64,000 nucleotides of DNA from positions 1 through 64,000 of the forward strand of contig JAKAVA010000089.1 of assembly GCA_021827645.1 (NCBI GenBank), written 5' to 3'. The notes beneath the pieces are model-generated. The model saw only the letters and a program-made list of their open reading frames with translations. It was not told where the DNA came from and did no database searches. The stretch is from Planctomycetota bacterium. GTDB lineage: Bacteria > Planctomycetota > Phycisphaerae > WQYP01. Of the stretch, positions 1,933 through 31,226 are shown in pieces (position 1 is the first letter of the stretch; every line of letters starts with the position of its first letter). A program made the position numbers and the translations under genes.

Positions 1933-3057
1933 TCAATCCAATGGATAGCGACGCACCAATGCCAAGAGAAAACCATTGGTGGATGCGACGTAAATGCGTT
2001 TTGAAACTGTCGATTTTGCATACACACACGGAGTCGATTCCGTTGCGCGGTAAATCACATCTCCATCGGCAGGCGAGATAATTAGAAGTTGATTCCGACC
2101 GGAGGCGGCAATTCTGTGACCGACCTCCCCGACAATACGTTTTGCGCCCTCTACCGGCCCCCACTGGATCGATCCGGTGGTTGGATTCAGGCTTATCAGT
2201 CCGGCGCCGCCGGTGCATATCATCAATCGTTTCCCAAACATGACGGGCTGATGGGTCAATCGGCCGGGCAGGCGTGTAATCCACGGCGCCAGTCCTGTTG
2301 AAGCATTAATGGCGTACAGATTGTGGTTGAGACATGGGACGAAAACGCGGTGGCCATCGGTGCCGAGATTCGCATCGACCGCACCGGATAGCGTTCGTCG
2401 CCACCCACCGCTTCCGTCCGTTGCAAGGTGACCCCAGACATGACCGTTCTGCGATCCGCACACCAGCATGCCGTCCAGAACCACCGGGCGGGATAAAAAG
2501 GCATCTCCGCTTGAATATTGGGCCCAGTGCATGAAGAGGGGAATATGCGGCGAGAGCGCATACATCCGATTATGATACGATCCGATGAACATGCGGCCAT
2601 TCGAGATGACCGGGCGGGTAGAGGGAGCAAATTTCAACGCCTGCGACTTGGTGACCGATCCGTCGGCCTTGCTGACAACCAACAGCTTGCTGCCGGCAAC
2701 GATCAGCAGATGTTTTTTACCATAGCGGATCGGTTCAAGTGTCGCCTGCCCGCGCACGGCGTATTGCTGAGTCCATTGGATGGAGCCGGACGAGGCATTG
2801 ATGCAAATCAGATAGCCATATTTGGTCAAGACATAGACGTTTTTCCCCAGCAACCAGACATGGGTGATCCGGTCGTGGGTTCGTGGCCCCAGGCCGAGGG
2901 GCATCTGCCAGAGTACTCTGAGACGTGCATGGTGAAGCACGGAACTGGAAAACGGGGCCGTAGCAGCCCGTGCGAATGTGGTTATCAACGTTATCGAGGC
3001 AATCACCACGATCATCATGGTGGCACCGGAGCGACTCCACCGCTTGGCATGCATCAA
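1933..3057 (-). CDS. PQQ-binding-like beta-propeller repeat protein, probably secreted
   Basis: 374 aa; N-terminal hydrophobic signal, repeated ASSGSIQW / NPTTGSIQWGP / DGDVIYR PQQ-like blades. Confidence 0.8.
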   Translation of the reverse strand: MMHAKRWSRSGATMMIVVIASITLITTFARAATAPFSSSVLHHARLRVLWQMPLGLGPRTHDRITHVWLLGKNVYVLTKYGYLICINASSGSIQWTQQYAVRGQATLEPIRYGKKHLLIVAGSKLLVVSKADGSVTKSQALKFAPSTRPVISNGRMFIGSYHNRMYALSPHIPLFMHWAQYSSGDAFLSRPVVLDGMLVCGSQNGHVWGHLATDGSGGWRRTLSGAVDANLGTDGHRVFVPCLNHNLYAINASTGLAPWITRLPGRLTHQPVMFGKRLMICTGGAGLISLNPTTGSIQWGPVEGAKRIVGEVGHRIAASGRNQLLIISPADGDVIYRATESTPCVYAKSTVSKRIYVASTNGFLLALVRRYPLD

Positions 3058-3352
3058 TTTAGCTCCTAAAACTTCAGCAACCGTTCGAATTTCATGCGGC
3101 TGTGCAAGTCGGCGAATACCGCCGCACCCCCGGCGATTGTTCTAACACCGCCTTTGCGTCTCCGCAATACCGATTCGCCAATCTTAACCGCCGGGTTTTA
3201 ATGGTCAACTTGCATCGATCGGCAGTTTCAAAATGCGGTTCAAGGCCTGCCGAGATTCGGCTTGTTTCGGAACCGCATGACGGAGTAAAGCGGACGCTGT
3301 GGAAGCGGTCCGAACTACATGACTGGAGGCAATGTCGCGGGGCCGGTATCCT

Positions 3353-4240
3353 ATGGAACAGATGAAGGTTCTGCTTATCGCCAATTCTGCCAAGCATGAG
3401 GCCGTTGCCGCCGGCCACCACTTACTGGCGGATTTTTCGCGTCGGATCGGCGTAAACGCCCGGTTTATGGAGGGGGTAGATGAGGCGAGTATCGGAAACC
3501 TGACCGACATACCGGATTTGATCGTGCTGCTCGGGGGTGATGGAACGATCCTGCAGGCGGCCCGGTTTCTGGCCCGGTACGGTGCCCCGGTCGCGGGAAT
3601 TAACTTCGGCAAGCTGGGTTACATGGCGGCCTTCACCCTTGATCAATTCAAGGAACATCTGCCTGCCCTTCTGGAGGGGAGATTCCAGACGACTGACCGC
3701 CTTATGCTGCTGGCGTCCATACGTGGACCTGAATCGGGGCCGGGCGGACGTGACATTCAACACGCGCCGAATCTGGAAGCCGAATATCTGGCACTTAACG
3801 ACGTGGTACTTAATGCCGGAGCTCCGTTTCGAATGGTTGAACTCACGGTGCGGGTAGACGATTCGGACACGGCTACTTTTCGAGGAGATGGAATCATCAT
3901 TTCCACCGCGTCGGGTTCAACGGGATACAACCTGTCAGCCGGTGGACCGCTGATTACACCGGACGTCAAGGCGATGGTGATTACTCCCATCTGCGCCCAT
4001 TCGCTCTCGTTCCGGCCGGTTGTGGTACCCGACGGGAGTGCCATAGGGATCAAACCGCGGCGACTGAACGATGGGACGCATCTGGTGATGGATGGGATGA
4101 TTATCCATCCATTGAATGTGAAACAATACGTGGTTGTTAAAAAGGCCCCGTACCCGCTGCGTCTGGTGATCAACCCACGCCAGACACACTGGGAATTACT
4201 CGCCAGTAAGCTGCACTGGGCAAGCCGTCCGACGGCCTGA
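3353..4240 (+). CDS. nadK: NAD(+)/NADH kinase (ORF open from 3332; start at MEQMKVLLIAN likely)
   Basis: LIVLLGGDGTILQAARFL (GGDGT), GINFGKLGYMAAF, STASGSTGYNLSAGGPLITP, ICAHSLSFRPVVVP motifs. Confidence 0.95.
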   Translation: MEQMKVLLIANSAKHEAVAAGHHLLADFSRRIGVNARFMEGVDEASIGNLTDIPDLIVLLGGDGTILQAARFLARYGAPVAGINFGKLGYMAAFTLDQFKEHLPALLEGRFQTTDRLMLLASIRGPESGPGGRDIQHAPNLEAEYLALNDVVLNAGAPFRMVELTVRVDDSDTATFRGDGIIISTASGSTGYNLSAGGPLITPDVKAMVITPICAHSLSFRPVVVPDGSAIGIKPRRLNDGTHLVMDGMIIHPLNVKQYVVVKKAPYPLRLVINPRQTHWELLASKLHWASRPTA

Positions 4241-22359: not shown

Positions 22360-22653
22360 ACTTTTCAGCAAACTGGGCCGAGCTGGATCAGTGCGCCTGC
22401 TTGTAAATCACGCGAACCGCGAATTGCCGCAAATAAATTTGCTGCGATCGATCAGTGGGCATGGATTATTTTGGCACCATTGGCGGCGACGGAAATGGCC
22501 ATAGGTTATCCAGCAATGAAAGTAGAGAGTTGAGAGTAGACCGCAGGAGGTGTTGCGTTTCAGCGGCAGCCGCCCATTTGTCTCATCCTTATTTTGCTCT
22601 ACTATCGACTCTCTCGAAACTCCTGCTCTATTTTTTCGGCTTTGCCGAAAAAA

Positions 22654-22756
22654 GGAAGCCGTAGCCACGTGGGAATGGTTCGGTGAGGGCACAGACACTG
22701 TCAGCGAAGGAAATGGCTTTTTGATAGACGATGAGTTTTTCAAAGGTGAAGGCCAT
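22654..22756 (-). pseudogene. 5' fragment of four-helix-bundle gene (deleted copy 1)
   Basis: Encodes MAFTFEKLIVYQKAISFADSVCALTEPFPRGYGF, then runs into the palindrome. Confidence 0.85.
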
Positions 22757-22907
22757 AGGTTATCCAGCAATGAAAGTAGAGAGTTGAGAGTAGACCGCAG
22801 GAGGTGTTGCGTTTCAGCGGCAGCCGCCCTTTTGTCTCATCCTTATTTTGATCTACTATCGACTCTCTCAAAACTCCTGCTCTATTTTTTCGGCTTTGCC
22901 GAAAAAA

Positions 22908-23010
22908 TGAAGCCGTAGCCACGTGGGAATGGTTCGGTGAGTGCACAGACACTGTCAGCGAAGGAAATGGCTTTTTGATAGACGATGAGTTTTTCAAAGG
23001 TGAAGGCCAT
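22908..23010 (-). pseudogene. 5' fragment of four-helix-bundle gene (deleted copy 2)
   Basis: Same truncation point as copy 1, a few substitutions. Confidence 0.85.
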
Positions 23011-23161
23011 AGGTTATCCAGCAATGAAAGTAGAGAGTTGAGAGTAGACCGCAGGAGGTGTTGCGTTTCAGCGGCAGCCGCCCTTTTGTCTCATCCTTAT
23101 TTTGCTCTACTATCGACTCTCTCAAAACTCCTGCTCTATTTTTTCGGCTTTGCCGAAAAAA

Positions 23162-23264
23162 GGAAGCCGTAGCCACGTGGGAATGGTTCGGTAAGGGCAC
23201 AGATACGGTCAGCGAAGGAAATGGCTTTTTGATAGACGATGAGTTTTTCAAAGGTGAAGGCCAT
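23162..23264 (-). pseudogene. 5' fragment of four-helix-bundle gene (deleted copy 3)
   Basis: Same truncation point as copies 1 and 2. Confidence 0.85.
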
Positions 23265-23418
23265 AGGTTATCCAGCAATGAAAGTAGAGAGTTGAGAGTA
23301 GACCGCAGGAGATGTTGCGTTTCGGCGGCAGCCGCCCTTTTGTCTCATCCTTATTTTGCTCTACTATCGACTCTCTCAAAACTCCTGCTCTATTTTTTCG
23401 GCTTTGCCGAAAAAATGA

Positions 23419-23781
23419 TCACGCTTTACGGTTTTCCAGGCCATTGATCAGTCCGGAGAGCATTTTGGAAATTTCCTCAAGATCAGAGCGGAGTTGAACA
23501 TGGGCGTCCAAGGTTAGCAATCTACGGCGGAAGGCGATTTCCAATAGTGCTACACATTCCTGCACGGAGCCTCGGGCGATCATGAAAAAGTTTTTACGGT
23601 CCCGAACGGTGAACCGTCCATTGCCTTCGGCAATGTTCGCGGCGACGGAAACGGAGGCTCGATTGAGTTGGTCGGAAAGGAAGCCGTAGCCACGTGGGAA
23701 TGGTTCGGTGAGGGCACAGACACTGTCAGCGAAGGAAATGGCTTTTTGATAGACGATGAGTTTTTCAAAGGTGAAGGCCAT
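23419..23781 (-). CDS. Four-helix-bundle protein (S23/23S rRNA IVS-type family), intact copy
   Basis: 120 aa: FEKLIVYQKAISFADSVCAL..FLSDQLNRASVSVAANIAEGNGR..KNFFMIARGSVQECVALLEIA. Confidence 0.92.
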   Translation of the reverse strand: MAFTFEKLIVYQKAISFADSVCALTEPFPRGYGFLSDQLNRASVSVAANIAEGNGRFTVRDRKNFFMIARGSVQECVALLEIAFRRRLLTLDAHVQLRSDLEEISKMLSGLINGLENRKA

Positions 23782-23932
23782 AGGTTATCCAGCAATGAAA
23801 GTAGAGAGTTGAGAGTAGACCGCAGGAGGTGTTGCGTTTCAGCGGCAGCCGCCCTTTTGTCTCATCCTTATTTTGCTCTACTATCGACTCTCTCGAAACT
23901 CCTGCTCTATTTTTTCGGCTTTGCCGAAAAAA

Positions 23933-24008
23933 TCGGGGCGACAGGATTTGAACCTGCGACCTCTTGACCCCCAGTCAAGCGCGCTAAACCAGGCTGCGCC
24001 ACGCCCCG
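23933..24008 (-). tRNA. tRNA-Pro (anticodon GGG)
   Basis: Minus strand CGGGGCG..CTTGA-CTGGGGG-TCAAG..GGTTCAAATCC..CGCCCCG-A; closed acceptor, anticodon and T stems. Confidence 0.96.
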
Positions 24009-24432
24009 AGTACGGATGTGACTTGAAAGTCTAATCCAAATCGGCATTTACCGAAAGTACTGCGGGTCGATGAGGATGTTTTTCGATACGCACCGGACCC
24101 GGCGAGAGGAGCAATGGGTTTAACCGCAGGGGACGCAGGGGAACGCTGAGGACGGGGGAATACTCACATCTCACGCGGAGCCGCGAAGATCGCGGAGGGG
24201 AAACCGGTTTAACCGCAGGGGACGCTGGGGAACGCAGAGGATATGGATTAACTATACATTACACGGAGTTGGCGCGACCAAGCGTGCAGACACACTGCCA
24301 ATACCTCTGCGAACCATTGCGACCTTTGCGGTAAAAAAAACACTTTACATCATGCCGGAGGCATGAAACGTGCCTGCTCTACTTTCTACTGTTCGACTTT
24401 CACTTTTCTGGCCGGCACTGCCGGCCATGTCT

Positions 24433-24501
24433 CACACCAAGCCACTAAGAACACGAAGATGATACGATGAAGCGGATGAACCCGCTGCTGGAGTCTTAGC
24501 G
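24433..24501. repeat. Dispersed repeat X, copy 1
   Basis: cacaccaagccactaagaacacgaagatgatacgatgaagcggatgaacccgctgctggagtcttagcg; about 62/69 identical to 25582-25650. Confidence 0.9.
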
Positions 24502-24502
24502 T

Positions 24503-24558
24503 ACCTCTGAGCCCTCTGCGGTGAATAAAAACTATTTACATCATGCGCCAGCATGAGA
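24503..24558. repeat. Dispersed repeat Y, copy 1
   Basis: acctctgagccctctgcggt..actatttacatcatgcgccagcatgaga; near-identical to 25519-25573, diverged relative near 24303-24360. Confidence 0.9.
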
Positions 24559-24644
24559 GGTGCTTGCTCAACTCTCGCCTGTTCTGCCGGCCCGCCGGCG
24601 CGGGTTTGACGCACCTTCCGCACTGAAGTAGACTACGCCCCTCG

Positions 24645-25689: not shown

Positions 25690-27845
25690 GAGGGGATGCT
25701 CATGCCATTATCCAAGCAGTGGATGTGGCCTTTGAAAGCTCCCCGAGGGGAGCTTTCAAAAACTTCGTTTTCCAACTGCCTCCAACTCCATTACCACCGA
25801 TCATCCTCAGTTGCGAGGGTGATCGTCTGCCACGAACCGCTCGTCGGCCATTGGCCTCTCCAGGATCCTGTGGGGGGCCGACCCGGATTCCTCCATTCTC
25901 TTCGAGCCTCGAATGTCCGGCCCTCAGGCCGCCATCAAATTGGCTTCATCGGAGATTTCATCGGGTGATCCCGCACCAGGCGCTTCAAAACTTAGCGTGG
26001 CGATCATTCAAGTCGCAGAGAGTGAAACGGAAGTCGCCGGGCAGGATCCTTGGTGGATCGGCGATGTCCAGGCGGATCGTGTTACCTGGAACTCAGTTCA
26101 TCTCATCCGAAAAGCCTCCTTCCCGCAGTTGCTGTTGCTTCCGTCGTGATGACTTCCGTATGGCATTTTTTGGCCGCCGTTGCGGTTGTTGGTGTCATGA
26201 CTCACCGTCGGCTCCTTCTCCGGGGGTGCGTTCCACTCTTTGCCCCGGCTGCTGCTCCGGTTGCCGTTGTTGTCCCTGACGGCATCGGCGTTGCCGTCGG
26301 TCTGGACTTCGGCACGCGCCTATCCCCATTGACTTTCTTCCCACCCGGTGAACCCCGGTCGGACTGCGCCGTGGCCCGTGCGGCGGTGTCTCCGACGGCA
26401 ACCCCCTTAGAGTCCCCCGTCGATAAATCATGGGGTCTCTCTGCCCTCCCGACACTCACCCCCGCCATCAACGCCCCCATACGCCTCCTCCGCCGACGAT
26501 GCCTCCCGGACCGGCGATTCTGAAAGACATGCTCATTTTTGAATACCTCGCCCGTCCGACAACAGTGATAAATCCCCAACGCCAACTTCCGCATCACCCC
26601 CGTCACCGCCTTGCCCCGGCGACCCCCGTCACGCTTCACCTTCGCCGCGTACCAACGCTCAATCGCCGGATCCTCCAGTTGACGCAGTGCCGAAAGGTAC
26701 AACCAGCGCCGCGCCTCCGGACTGCCCCGTTTGCTGATGTGCAGACGACCCACATATTGCCCGCTCGATCGCTCCACCAAATTCAATCCCAACGCCTTCA
26801 GGTACGCACCGCCGCTGGAATAATTCCCGGGATCACCCGCCGCCAGATGCAGCACCGCCATCGTCGCCTTCCCCAATACCTCGCCGGCCACTCTCACCGC
26901 TGAGAGACCCCCGCTGAGCTTCTCCAATTCCCGGTGGTGTTCGCCCAATCTCTTTTTGGCCTCCAGCAGACGCGTGGCGATCTCCACCAGATGCCGCGCT
27001 TCCCCTGCGCCCACCGGAACCCCACAGGTACTGCGGGCACTCTGCACCACCTCCTGAATCTTTTGCGGAGTCAAAAATCGGCCGCCCCACTCGGCCAGAC
27101 GCTCGGCAGCTCCCCCATCCGACCCCAGAGCCGCCGGCGATCCGTGGGCGATCAGGGCCTCCAGCAACGTCCGGCTGTCCAAATCCAGAAGCCCCAATGC
27201 CTCCGGCCAGTGTCGCGCCAGAAGAGCCTCCAACCGACCACGCCACGCATCCACCTGCTGCTGATAGTTCCCCATCAGGTCCGCGTGCATCGACAGAAGC
27301 TGCTCCTGCTCACTGGCCGGGCTCCATGGCCACGGCATCGATTTGCCTATGGCGCAGAGTTCCGCAATCACGCCCGCGTCCTTACCGTCATGCTGACTGG
27401 GAACCCCGTCGTACACCTCCGCATGACGATTCGACGCCTGCGGCGGTACCCACTCCACCGAAAGGCCCGCCCGGTGACATGCATATCGAAAAGCATCTCC
27501 ATACGTGCCCGACGGCTCCATCGCCACACGCAGTTCCCGGCCCACCGAGAGCTTCTGCAGAAAGCCAATCCCCGCACCGATCTGCGACGGCTGCGATACC
27601 ACCACCGGTGAGGAGGTCACGCCGTTGGCCCAGCGGATCACCAGATACAGTTTGCTCTTGCCTACATCCACACCGACCACGCATCGTTGCCCCTCCCGGC
27701 CCAACAGCATGGACCCCAGATCCATCGACTCGACATTTTGACTCCGATAGGTTCTACTTCCCGTCATGGGGATGACCTCCTGTAAAAGCGTTCATCGCCG
27801 GCGGACATTCCGCCGGACACCAAACGCATTTTGAGGCATCCCCTC
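25690..27845 (-). mobile_element. IS110-family insertion element (approximate limits)
   Basis: Transposase 26202-27767 bracketed by 10-bp inverted repeats GAGGGGATGC (25690-25699) and GCATCCCCTC (27836-27845); limits provisional. Confidence 0.6.
26202..27767 (-). CDS. IS110 family transposase (DEDD N-terminal and Transposase_20-like C-terminal domains)
   Basis: CVVGVDVGKSKLYLVI, VAMEPSGTYGDAFRYACHRAG, QHDGKDAGVIAEL, LKALGLNLVERSSGQYVGRLHISKRGSPEARRWLYL. Confidence 0.92.
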   Translation of the reverse strand: MTGSRTYRSQNVESMDLGSMLLGREGQRCVVGVDVGKSKLYLVIRWANGVTSSPVVVSQPSQIGAGIGFLQKLSVGRELRVAMEPSGTYGDAFRYACHRAGLSVEWVPPQASNRHAEVYDGVPSQHDGKDAGVIAELCAIGKSMPWPWSPASEQEQLLSMHADLMGNYQQQVDAWRGRLEALLARHWPEALGLLDLDSRTLLEALIAHGSPAALGSDGGAAERLAEWGGRFLTPQKIQEVVQSARSTCGVPVGAGEARHLVEIATRLLEAKKRLGEHHRELEKLSGGLSAVRVAGEVLGKATMAVLHLAAGDPGNYSSGGAYLKALGLNLVERSSGQYVGRLHISKRGSPEARRWLYLSALRQLEDPAIERWYAAKVKRDGGRRGKAVTGVMRKLALGIYHCCRTGEVFKNEHVFQNRRSGRHRRRRRRMGALMAGVSVGRAERPHDLSTGDSKGVAVGDTAARATAQSDRGSPGGKKVNGDRRVPKSRPTATPMPSGTTTATGAAAGAKSGTHPRRRSRR

Positions 27846-27885: not shown

Positions 27886-29079
27886 TTGGGGCGTTACGCC
27901 TTTGACGGCCTGACACCCCTGTTCCTCGCAGTTGCCAACGTAAGAGGGTCGGGCAAGACCCTAATGATTCAGGTTATCAGTCGGATCTTGCACGGAGGCG
28001 ACATTTCGGTCTTCAGTTATGCTCGTGACCCTGACGAAATGCGAAAAAGAATCACCTCGATTGCCATCGCTGGTGATAGTATGGTACTGCTCGATAATTT
28101 GGTGGGTGTTTTCGGTAATGAGGCGCTGAATCGGGCACTTACCGCCACTTCCTGGAAAGATCGGCTTCTAGGAACACACGATATTGTCGATGTGCCGCTG
28201 AAGATAATCTGGTATGGAACCGGCAACAACACCACTGTCGAAGACGACTTGGCCCGCCGGACCGTCCCTATTCGACTGGAAGTGATGGAGGAGCATCCGG
28301 AGGATCGGCGGGGATTCACCCATCCGAATCTGCTCGCATGGGTGAGGAGCAATCGGCCTCGCCTGCTGGAAGCCGCGTTCACAATCCTGGTTGCATACTG
28401 CCAAGCGGGGAGACCAACACAGAATCTCACGCCGTTCGGGAGTTTCTCGGATTGGTCCGAGCTAATCCGGGGAGCTCTTGTCTGGGCGGGGCTACCGGAT
28501 CCCCTTCAGGCCAGAGGAGAATTTTTGGCGATGTCCGATACGGGTTCTGATGCACTGCGGCAACTTATTGCCGCGTTGCATAGTTACGGGTATTCGACGA
28601 GTGGATTTGTTGTGTCTTCGCTGCTTGCCGATCTGTATTCCTCTACCGATTCCAACGACCCTGTGGGTGCCGCGATGCGTGCTGCCATTGAGGAATTTTG
28701 CGGATGCGCGGCCGGGAAAAAGCCTTCGGCAAGGCAATTCGGAAACAAACTCAGGAGTGTGCGGCGACGGGTATGTGATGGATGGTATCTTGATATTGAT
28801 ACCAGCCAAAAAAATCGGATCGGCTCCGTCTGGCGATTAAATCGAGGCACATCTGGAACGGCCAATTCACGGGAAAACACCAGTGCCGGGGAGGGTATCA
28901 ACCCTGAAGCACTCGGGCCACCAATCGTGTCGCCACTGCCAAGCGGGGGAAATAAAGATTGTTTTTCAAAGTATCAATCACAGCATTTTGAGATTAGCGA
29001 TTTTGAAGAGCCAGATGAATTTTGTGAATCCAGCGAATCTGGAGTATCTGTTTCACCACCCCTGAAAGAAATTTCATGA
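27886..29079 (+). pseudogene. 5'-truncated phage/plasmid-type primase-helicase (AAA ATPase portion)
   Basis: ATPase begins almost immediately: LFLAVANVRGSGKTLMIQVISRI Walker A, DSMVLLDNL; open frame upstream only to 27835 next to the IS end. Confidence 0.7.
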
Positions 29080-29589: not shown

Positions 29590-31119
29590 ATGCGAGTTTT
29601 CAAAAGCAGCTACAAAGACCGAACCACTGGCAAATCGCGGCAAACCGCACGGTGGTATGTGGAATTGCGGGACCATCGCAATATCATCCGGCGTCTACCG
29701 GCATTCACCGACAAGAATCAATCCCTGGCGCTGGGCAGGACGGTTCTGAAGTTGGTTGAAAATCGGCAATCCGGCGAACCGCTGACGGTGGAATTAAGTC
29801 GTTGGCTGGAAACCGTGTCCGATGCAACCAAAGCAACTTTGGCCCGCTGGGGGCTCATTGACCAGAGCAGGTTGACCGGCAGTAAACCACTGACGGGGCA
29901 TATATCCGACTGGAAAGCAGATATGTTGGCGCAGGGCAATACAGCCAAGCACGCAAACTTGTCCGCCAGTCGGGTTGAACGGCTAACTGCTGATTGCGGG
30001 TTCAATTTTTACAGCGACATATCTGCTGCCAAAATTCAACAAAAACTGGCCGACTACCGAAAAAATACTTTGGATGCAAGGGGTCATGCTGAAACTGGTA
30101 TCGGTTTGAAGACCACCAATTATTACCTGCGTGATCTGAAAAGTTTCTGTCGCTGGATGATGCATGAGCGTCGGGTCAATGCAAACCCGGTTGAATACTT
30201 GGATGCGTTGAATGCTAAAGTCGACATTCGCCGTCAACGCCGGACATTGTCCGAGGTTGACATGCGGAAGTTGTTGACTGCGACACGCAATGGCCCGGAG
30301 CGTCGTGGTATGAGTGGGCAGGAACGAGCTTTGGTCTATGAGCTTTCAGCAACAACGGGGTTACGGGTAAGCGAACTGGCCAGCCTAACCGTAGCCTCAT
30401 TCACACTGGACGAATCACCGAGTGTCACCATTGATGCCGCTTATGCCAAAAACCGACGACGAGATACGCTCCCATTGCGAGCGGATATGGCCGAACACTT
30501 GCGAAACTTTTTGGCGACCAAACTGCCGGGCACCAAGGTTTTTCCCAAACTTAGCAACCATAATTCCGCGCAGATGATCAAGGCCGACCTTGAAGCTGCT
30601 GGATTGCCTTTTGAGTTGGATGGTAAATATTTTGATTTTCACTCCCTACGCCACCAATTCATATCCGGGCTTGCCGCTGTTGGCATTCATCCAAAGACCG
30701 CGCAACAACTGGCGAGGCACAGCACCATTACCTTGACCATGGACAATTACACACATGTTTTCCGTGGCGAGCTTGACAAGGCTGTCAACGCGTTGCCAGA
30801 TTGGCATACGCCAACACCCGAACTGGCCCGAGCCACCGGTACGGTGAATCAATCGGCTGCAGTAGGCCTTCGACCGCTGGCACCCGTGGTCGCCAAAGCG
30901 TCAAGCAGGTCGAAAGAAAAAAGCTCGGCGTTCTGCTTGGCGCTTTCCAACGAAAAAGAGCAATCTCTGACGGACTCAGACGAACTGAAATCCGACGAGG
31001 TGCCGAGCGAAGAAAAGCATTGCGAACACGAGAAAATCCGCATGGATATTGGTGATTCTGATAAAGGCCGGAGTGGGATTCGAACCCACGACAAACGGAT
31101 TTGCAATCCGCCCCCTTAG
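29590..31119 (+). CDS. Tyrosine-type recombinase/integrase
   Basis: ATTGLRVSELASLTV, FDFHSLRHQFISGLAAVGIHPKTAQQLARHSTITLTMDNYTH (R..HxxR..H..Y); 3' end antisense to tRNA-Cys. Confidence 0.95.
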   Translation: MRVFKSSYKDRTTGKSRQTARWYVELRDHRNIIRRLPAFTDKNQSLALGRTVLKLVENRQSGEPLTVELSRWLETVSDATKATLARWGLIDQSRLTGSKPLTGHISDWKADMLAQGNTAKHANLSASRVERLTADCGFNFYSDISAAKIQQKLADYRKNTLDARGHAETGIGLKTTNYYLRDLKSFCRWMMHERRVNANPVEYLDALNAKVDIRRQRRTLSEVDMRKLLTATRNGPERRGMSGQERALVYELSATTGLRVSELASLTVASFTLDESPSVTIDAAYAKNRRRDTLPLRADMAEHLRNFLATKLPGTKVFPKLSNHNSAQMIKADLEAAGLPFELDGKYFDFHSLRHQFISGLAAVGIHPKTAQQLARHSTITLTMDNYTHVFRGELDKAVNALPDWHTPTPELARATGTVNQSAAVGLRPLAPVVAKASSRSKEKSSAFCLALSNEKEQSLTDSDELKSDEVPSEEKHCEHEKIRMDIGDSDKGRSGIRTHDKRICNPPP

Positions 31120-31138
31120 TCCACTCGGGCATCCGGCC
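31065..31138 (-). tRNA. tRNA-Cys (anticodon GCA)
   Basis: Minus strand GGCCGGA..GCGGA-TTGCAAA-TCCGT..GGGTTCGAATCCC..TCCGGCC-T; U73 typical of Cys. Confidence 0.96.
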
Positions 31139-31226
31139 TTCTTGGCAGACATCCTATTGCCGAGAGGCTTATTACTCAAGGTCAGATTCGTAACGGTGAC
31201 GGGGCCGCCGTCTGGCGTTGCGGCTC

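Follow-up and report, generated by a model that had tools for sequence, protein, structure and literature searches.

This locus raises the question of why a small gene and a short repeat alternate in tandem at one point of a planctomycete genome, and to what kind of element the two belong. The window, which is the whole stretch of 64,000 nucleotides analyzed here, contains a single tandem array as judged by Tandem Repeats Finder, at positions 22474–23932. As the initial annotation had proposed, the array is built on five nearly identical copies of a 151-bp segment, I, which show 98–100% mutual identity and are spaced by 254, 254, 254, and 517 bp. The gene lies on the minus strand. The copies can be distinguished by SNPs, and their exact number is uncertain because the source genome is a draft of 119 contigs. 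What the annotation missed is the neighbor of the array: read on the minus strand, on which all of its features lie, the array starts where a tRNA-Pro(GGG) gene without an encoded CCA ends (23933–24008; ARAGORN; Rfam tRNA, 62.7 bits), and the order is tRNA-Pro(GGG)-I-G-I-g'-I-g'-I-g'-I, followed by a last remnant of the S23 gene. The first I (23782–23932), which begins one base past the tRNA discriminator and reaches the S23 start codon, forms the left end of the element, and copies 2 to 5 occupy 23265–23415, 23011–23161, 22757–22907, and 22503–22653. G (23419–23781) is, as had been claimed, an intact four-helix-bundle gene of 120 aa (PF05635, E = 1e-28; TIGR02436, E = 3e-27), and the three g' (23162–23264, 22908–23010, and 22654–22756) are its deletion derivatives, which retain S23 codons 1–35 (the annotation had given about 34) and continue directly into the next P0 palindrome. 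Because g' runs into the next P0, the 263-bp gap between the 517- and 254-bp units represents an internal deletion ending at P0; the junction, GGCTTCCTT joined to TTTTTCGGC, confirms the loss of the same 263 bp that had been deduced from the unit lengths. In the fourth S23 remnant, found after the I at the lowest coordinates (22474–22502; repeat family D6), the start codon region is joined to about codon 43, and the deletion is different from and larger than that in g'. The array looks like the product of tandem growth and internal deletion at one tRNA-Pro gene, and was probably multiplied by unequal exchange between copies of I.

The S23 four-helix-bundle protein was earlier known mainly from rRNA insertions. 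Such proteins are common and their structures have been solved, while to our knowledge no job has been assigned to them. The protein encoded by G is a full-length member of PF05635/TIGR02436, scoring 100.1 bits (cut-off 33.8) and 95.1 bits (cut-off 24), respectively, and is related to the solved structures 2gsc and 2rld. Against the profile of the diversity-generating retroelement (DGR) protein Avd, NF033474, it scores 22.5 bits versus a cut-off of 80, and thus is not Avd by score. Comparison with relatives gave dN/dS values of 0.04–0.25, and the gene is under purifying selection and conserved as a protein. When about 85,000 species genomes were scanned, the subfamily (alignment A1) proved almost confined to Planctomycetota; only distant S23 proteins, with <60% identity and mostly cyanobacterial, were found on plasmids, and no relative was found on viral contigs.

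Next to the tRNA discriminator base, which is nearly always A, the left end opens with the palindrome P0, which in the window has the sequence TTTTTTCGGC-AAA-GCCGAAAAAA and is flush with the tRNA 3' end (23910–23932). The initial annotation had reported the palindrome as TTTTTTCGGC-TTT-GCCGAAAAAA, along with a GCGGC/GCCGC hairpin and crossed arms, and all of these are present. P0 is followed by AGAG and then by two pairs of arms in crossed order, namely P1 (GCAGGAG, 23899–23905, and CTCCTGC, 23822–23828) and P2 (heptad-like purine repeats, 23877–23893, and pyrimidine heptads, 23803–23819). A flush stem of at least 6 bp was found in 74 of 83 left ends compared with 0.4% of shuffles, the former being an upper estimate because the left ends were picked partly for having P0, and the arms of P0 extend into the tRNA end in some copies (L052, L081, L292, and L295). 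The sequences of P0 differ in 59 of 62 cases. Adjacent units in L047 have wholly different, equally perfect P0 beside an identical 60-nt body, and such unlike P0 on identical bodies point to turnover of P0 as a block, not to slow compensatory change. Neighboring units with identical bodies and either inverted P0 loops (GAA versus TTC) or wholly different P0 are seen in L044 (around 3000–3516) and L047 (around 2822–3524).

With the arms fixed by position, and by permutations that ignore relatedness, the pairing of P1 was 6.45 of 7 within an element versus 4.75 between elements (reached by 0 of 10,000 permutations), and that of P2 was 11.82 of 14 versus 10.97 (0 of 2,000). Compared with shuffled sequences, the nested part of I has the better fold (z = -2.95). 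G-U pairs and A-C mismatches are equally frequent (9/8 in P0, 11/11 in P1, and 32/29 in P2), and therefore the paired form may be RNA, single-stranded DNA, or duplex DNA; although the arms co-vary strongly, we do not claim an RNA pseudoknot as the selected form. Several candidate identities were rejected. P0 does not fit an intrinsic terminator, since its T-runs are not on the side of the stem where a terminator would have them; an HDV-like ribozyme, considered for the strand order P1, P2, P3, P1', P2', is not claimed in view of the lack of P4 and of any Rfam hit; and as for known RNA families, Rfam at gathering score detected only tRNAs, with IMES-5 (16 versus 96 bits) at chance level.

The position behind a tRNA is not peculiar to the array. 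The source genome has seven copies of I at three loci, and all three of its tRNA-Pro genes (GGG, CGG, and UGG) carry an I starting at the same base. The S23 genes at the CGG and UGG loci are broken differently, with only codons 1–48 retained on contig C12 and another internal deletion on C93, and the I sequences of C80 and C12 are 98.7% identical. The initial annotation had taken confinement of I to this site as a reason to abandon its idea of an element, and empty sites as a means to define one: of the 27 other family genomes examined, 22 contain I, in up to 21 copies, and tRNA-Pro genes without the element exist in relatives. Nearly all genomes compared are metagenome assemblies, and 78 of their S23-subfamily loci include sufficient DNA upstream of the gene. 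In 49 of these, a full tRNA gene of the same orientation directly precedes it (42 Pro, 4 Met, 2 Ala, and 1 Arg), where chance adjacency is estimated at <1% (roughly 50 tRNAs in 3 Mb). The remaining loci comprise 3 at the 3' end of tmRNA, 13 with a conserved motif plus a copy of a tRNA 3' end, 7 with another tRNA 3' fragment, and 6 with nothing recognized. The element invariably has the same orientation as the tRNA. A phylum sample drawn regardless of tRNAs yielded anchors of 7 Pro, 1 Ser, and 1 Gly, and the S23 proteins in that sample with ≤47% identity to the subfamily had no tRNA anchor; as a control, tRNA neighbors were found for 0 of 24 more distant S23 genes of the same bacterial family. 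A few copies of I lie away from tRNA 3' ends, as in L197 (G020, contig C120, 3024–3394), where three tandem I stand near tRNA-Leu(GAG) and not at its 3' end. These copies are exceptions to the 3'-end rule and count against a cassette specific for such ends.

At several loci, AAAAAGTTCAAYTGGTGTC lies downstream of S23, and after it the tRNA 3' end is repeated. The right-end pattern gave 29 matches in 16 of the 28 family genomes, and the reversed pattern gave none. The last ~8 bases match the host tRNA, which is Ala in L066, while the matching bases are TCATCCCG in L067 and CTCGCCCCGA in L093, and the bases preceding them can differ from it. A clear right end is located within 1.5 kb for about 10 copies only, out of about 58 that are anchored at a tRNA. 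At most right-end sites another P0-I follows at once to give tandem units, three of which stand after tRNA-Pro(TGG) on contig C10 of G020. The smallest units, of about 0.55 kb, contain S23 only (L061, L064, and L067); the cargo of others includes a Gp49/HTH pair (G013 and G005), a DUF429 protein (L046), a 420-aa exported-type protein, and a protein common to G010 and G020 that reads as nuclease-like and has no Pfam match. Pfam detected no tyrosine integrase among eight cargo proteins from units of 0.5–3 kb. In L061, L066, and L067, the last right end is followed by a terminator-like hairpin similar to the native trailers that empty tRNA-Pro genes have in six genomes (G004, G005, G007, G008, G011, and G015), and empty tRNA-Pro sites retain the native terminator.

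In two comparisons, units from different genomes resemble one another more closely than the EF-G genes do. A 2.2-kb stretch containing the tRNA and the cassette is 97.8% identical between tRNA-Pro(TGG) of G020 and tRNA-Pro(GGG) of G027, versus 92.7% for EF-G. Between G020 and G021, which belong to different genera, the S23 unit shows 91–92% identity over 555 bp (pS 0.06–0.08) versus 79.5% for EF-G (pS 0.63), and the match is bounded by the tRNA 3' end and the S23 stop codon. Movement of the cassette between genomes is supported by the high identity of these units across species and genera and by the existence of empty sites, matched by tRNA type.

The position, both ends, the duplication of the tRNA 3' end, the tandem units, and the cross-genus pattern of similarity are all observed features of these loci, and we consider it likely that the array is a member of a family of small site-specific mobile cassettes at the 3' ends of tRNA genes. 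From the tRNA 3' end onward, a complete unit would consist of P0, AGAG, crossed P1/P2, S23, optional cargo, and AAAAAGTTCAAYTGGTGTC, followed by the copy of the tRNA 3' end. Such a cassette would sit just after the discriminator base, leaving the tRNA intact and displacing its own terminator, and roughly the acceptor 3' strand would be duplicated at the far end so that the next cassette can stand alongside and tandem arrays can form; while this anatomy is seen in the genomes, the order in which cassettes land is what we infer from it. Expression is probably achieved by readthrough from the tRNA promoter, because the element is on the tRNA strand and P0 is no intrinsic terminator, and S23 probably binds the crossed repeats, as its RNA-linked relatives suggest. 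No recombinase is found in the units examined, and therefore the enzyme that moves them probably acts in trans; by analogy with other tRNA-gene islands, the best candidate might be a tyrosine recombinase. Tyrosine recombinases are encoded in every family genome, and therefore their presence does not discriminate between mechanisms. A reverse transcriptase or a Y1 transposase was rejected as a necessary partner, neither being consistently present.

These findings retain part of the interpretation in the initial annotation, which had likened the layout to an autonomous element with MITE-like derivatives and regarded I as the mobile or recombination unit. I does recur in the genome and in relatives, S23 and I go together, and g' are derivatives, but I does not scatter as MITE-like insertions: it forms the left boundary of an element whose fixed place is the tRNA 3' end. 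The P0-I and AAAAAGTTC ends of this element are unlike, as opposed to the terminal inverted repeats that MITEs have in common with a transposase-bearing parent, and the units examined contain no transposase.

Another explanation of the right-end motif and the tRNA copy is that they are the attachment scar of ordinary tyrosine-integrase islands, and that I-S23 pre-existed downstream and was displaced or carried along. Integrase islands with ~47-nt tRNA repeats do exist in the same tRNA-Pro genes (contig C62 of G004, with an integrase, and C37 of G009), in keeping with the ubiquity of tyrosine recombinases in the family. That on C62 (L240, 534–10459) is a 9.85-kb integrase island with a ~47-nt repeat of tRNA-Pro(CGG), and P0-I follows the far repeat, so that two element types are stacked on one tRNA gene. 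Integrase islands are thus the main rival source of the right-end scar and could account for part of the picture. However, the ~47-nt repeats lack the AAAAAGTTC motif, whereas cassette junctions have ~8–13 nt plus the motif; the smallest cassette units carry S23 alone; and I-S23 is also found behind Met, Ala, Arg, Ser, and Gly tRNAs and tmRNA, all of which makes this explanation unlikely. It is also conceivable that a transcript linked to the tRNA undergoes cleavage at the tRNA 3' end and that a reverse transcriptase supplied in trans copies it back, with S23 in the part of Avd. The start of the element at the tRNA 3' processing point, its constant orientation on the tRNA strand, and the distant relationship of Avd to S23 (PMC10053308) agree with such a route, but an RVT_1 gene is undetectable in G020 (95% complete, with 21 copies of I) and in G014, and the equality of G-U and A-C in P0, P1, and P2 gives no sign of RNA selection on the repeats; we regard RNA-mediated copying as quite unlikely.

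The purifying selection on S23, the strong preference for tRNA-Pro, and the occurrence throughout the phylum might instead reflect an inherited host module, in which the tRNA-Pro trailer and S23 form a regulatory or processing unit and the copies at other tRNAs are rare duplications. Such inheritance is very unlikely given that the subfamily (E ≤ 1e-25) occurs in only 17 of 294 sampled phylum genomes, that empty tRNA-Pro sites and decayed genes are frequent, and that cross-genus transfer is indicated. Lastly, a Y1 (HUH) transposase acting in trans might move a single-stranded DNA element comparable to REPINs or derivatives of IS200/IS605, with left cleavage after the target and a target-like right end. 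The logic of the ends is the same, that is, a target, a hairpin, and a target-like end, with palindromes near the end; yet Y1 hits in the source genome are limited to two below the threshold, G003 has none, different tRNAs provide different targets, and the end hairpin has no conserved sequence; we therefore hold this mechanism to be very improbable.

If the preferred reading, a mobile cassette at tRNA 3' ends, is applied to the window, its array is probably a worn, locally multiplied version. The right-end pattern (the conserved 19-mer with the repeated tRNA 3' end) has no match in the source genome, and the window copies are therefore probably relics; the right end would have been lost, and the then-remaining unit multiplied and internally deleted in place. 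The window also contains other features. A second interspersed repeat (TTTAACCGCAGGGGACGCAGGGGAACGCTGAGGA ... CTCTACTTTCTACTGTTCGACTTTC) at 24106–24600, directly upstream of tRNA-Pro, has pyrimidine heptads like those of P2, and similar stretches occur on many contigs (C65, C79, C96, and C46) as well as upstream of tRNA-Pro(UGG) in L009. An ORF of 521 aa at 26202–27767 on the minus strand reads as an IS110-like transposase. In the region 30247–31139, a tyrosine integrase gene (30247–30762, plus strand) lies beside tRNA-Cys (31064–31139, minus strand), with a primase/helicase-like ORF (27886–29079) nearby, and the integrase and this ORF probably represent an integrative island in tRNA-Cys.

The cassette combines two known kinds of element, S23 insertions in stable-RNA genes and tRNA-gene islands. 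The intervening sequences of 23S rRNA with S23 ORFs in Coxiella and Leptospira (PMC4990558) likewise have an S23 ORF after heptameric repeats in a stable-RNA gene where processing should make the insertion harmless. They differ in that the host here is a tRNA or tmRNA 3' end, the right end is conserved with a duplicated tRNA 3' end, and there are cargo and tandem arrays; furthermore, the array adjoins tRNA-Pro and no rRNA was found in the window, whereas intervening sequences are inserted inside the 23S rRNA gene, and the ORF in Coxiella is decaying (PMC4990558), in contrast to the purifying selection on S23 here. With tDNA islands (Islander, PMC4383910) and tycheposons, the cassettes share the occupancy of tRNA/tmRNA 3' ends, the intact tRNA, and the displaced 3'-end copy; in relatives both boundaries are found, the intact tRNA on one side and the displaced copy on the other, but in the window the right end is absent. 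Unlike those islands, which have their own tyrosine integrase, the cassette units are about 0.5–3 kb with no recombinase, their repeat is short (~8–13 nt), and their left end is always the palindrome, crossed repeats, and S23. Integron gene cassettes resemble them in the tandem short units, the recurring end site, and the varied cargo including toxin-antitoxin-like pairs, but here the units are tRNA-anchored and the end site is a tRNA 3' end of different architecture. DGR Avd is a distant sequence relative in the same four-helix-bundle superfamily, but S23 falls far below the curated cut-off and no reverse transcriptase was seen in the units examined. The open-access literature searched contained descriptions of rRNA intervening sequences, DGR Avd, and tRNA-gene islands (PMC4383910), and none of S23 at tRNA ends. 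We offer only tentatively, and with more doubt than confidence, the broader proposal of an integron-like gene-capture platform of a kind without earlier description, in which S23 and the crossed repeats would direct short cargo units exactly after the discriminator base in Planctomycetota.

The association of a conserved S23 with one exact tRNA position in a two-ended, cargo-bearing cassette provides a testable context for the function of S23. It also suggests one theme for the rRNA and tRNA insertions, which is placement where the processing of stable RNA makes an insertion harmless. If cassettes accumulate at tRNA genes, they would represent an overlooked route of gene capture.
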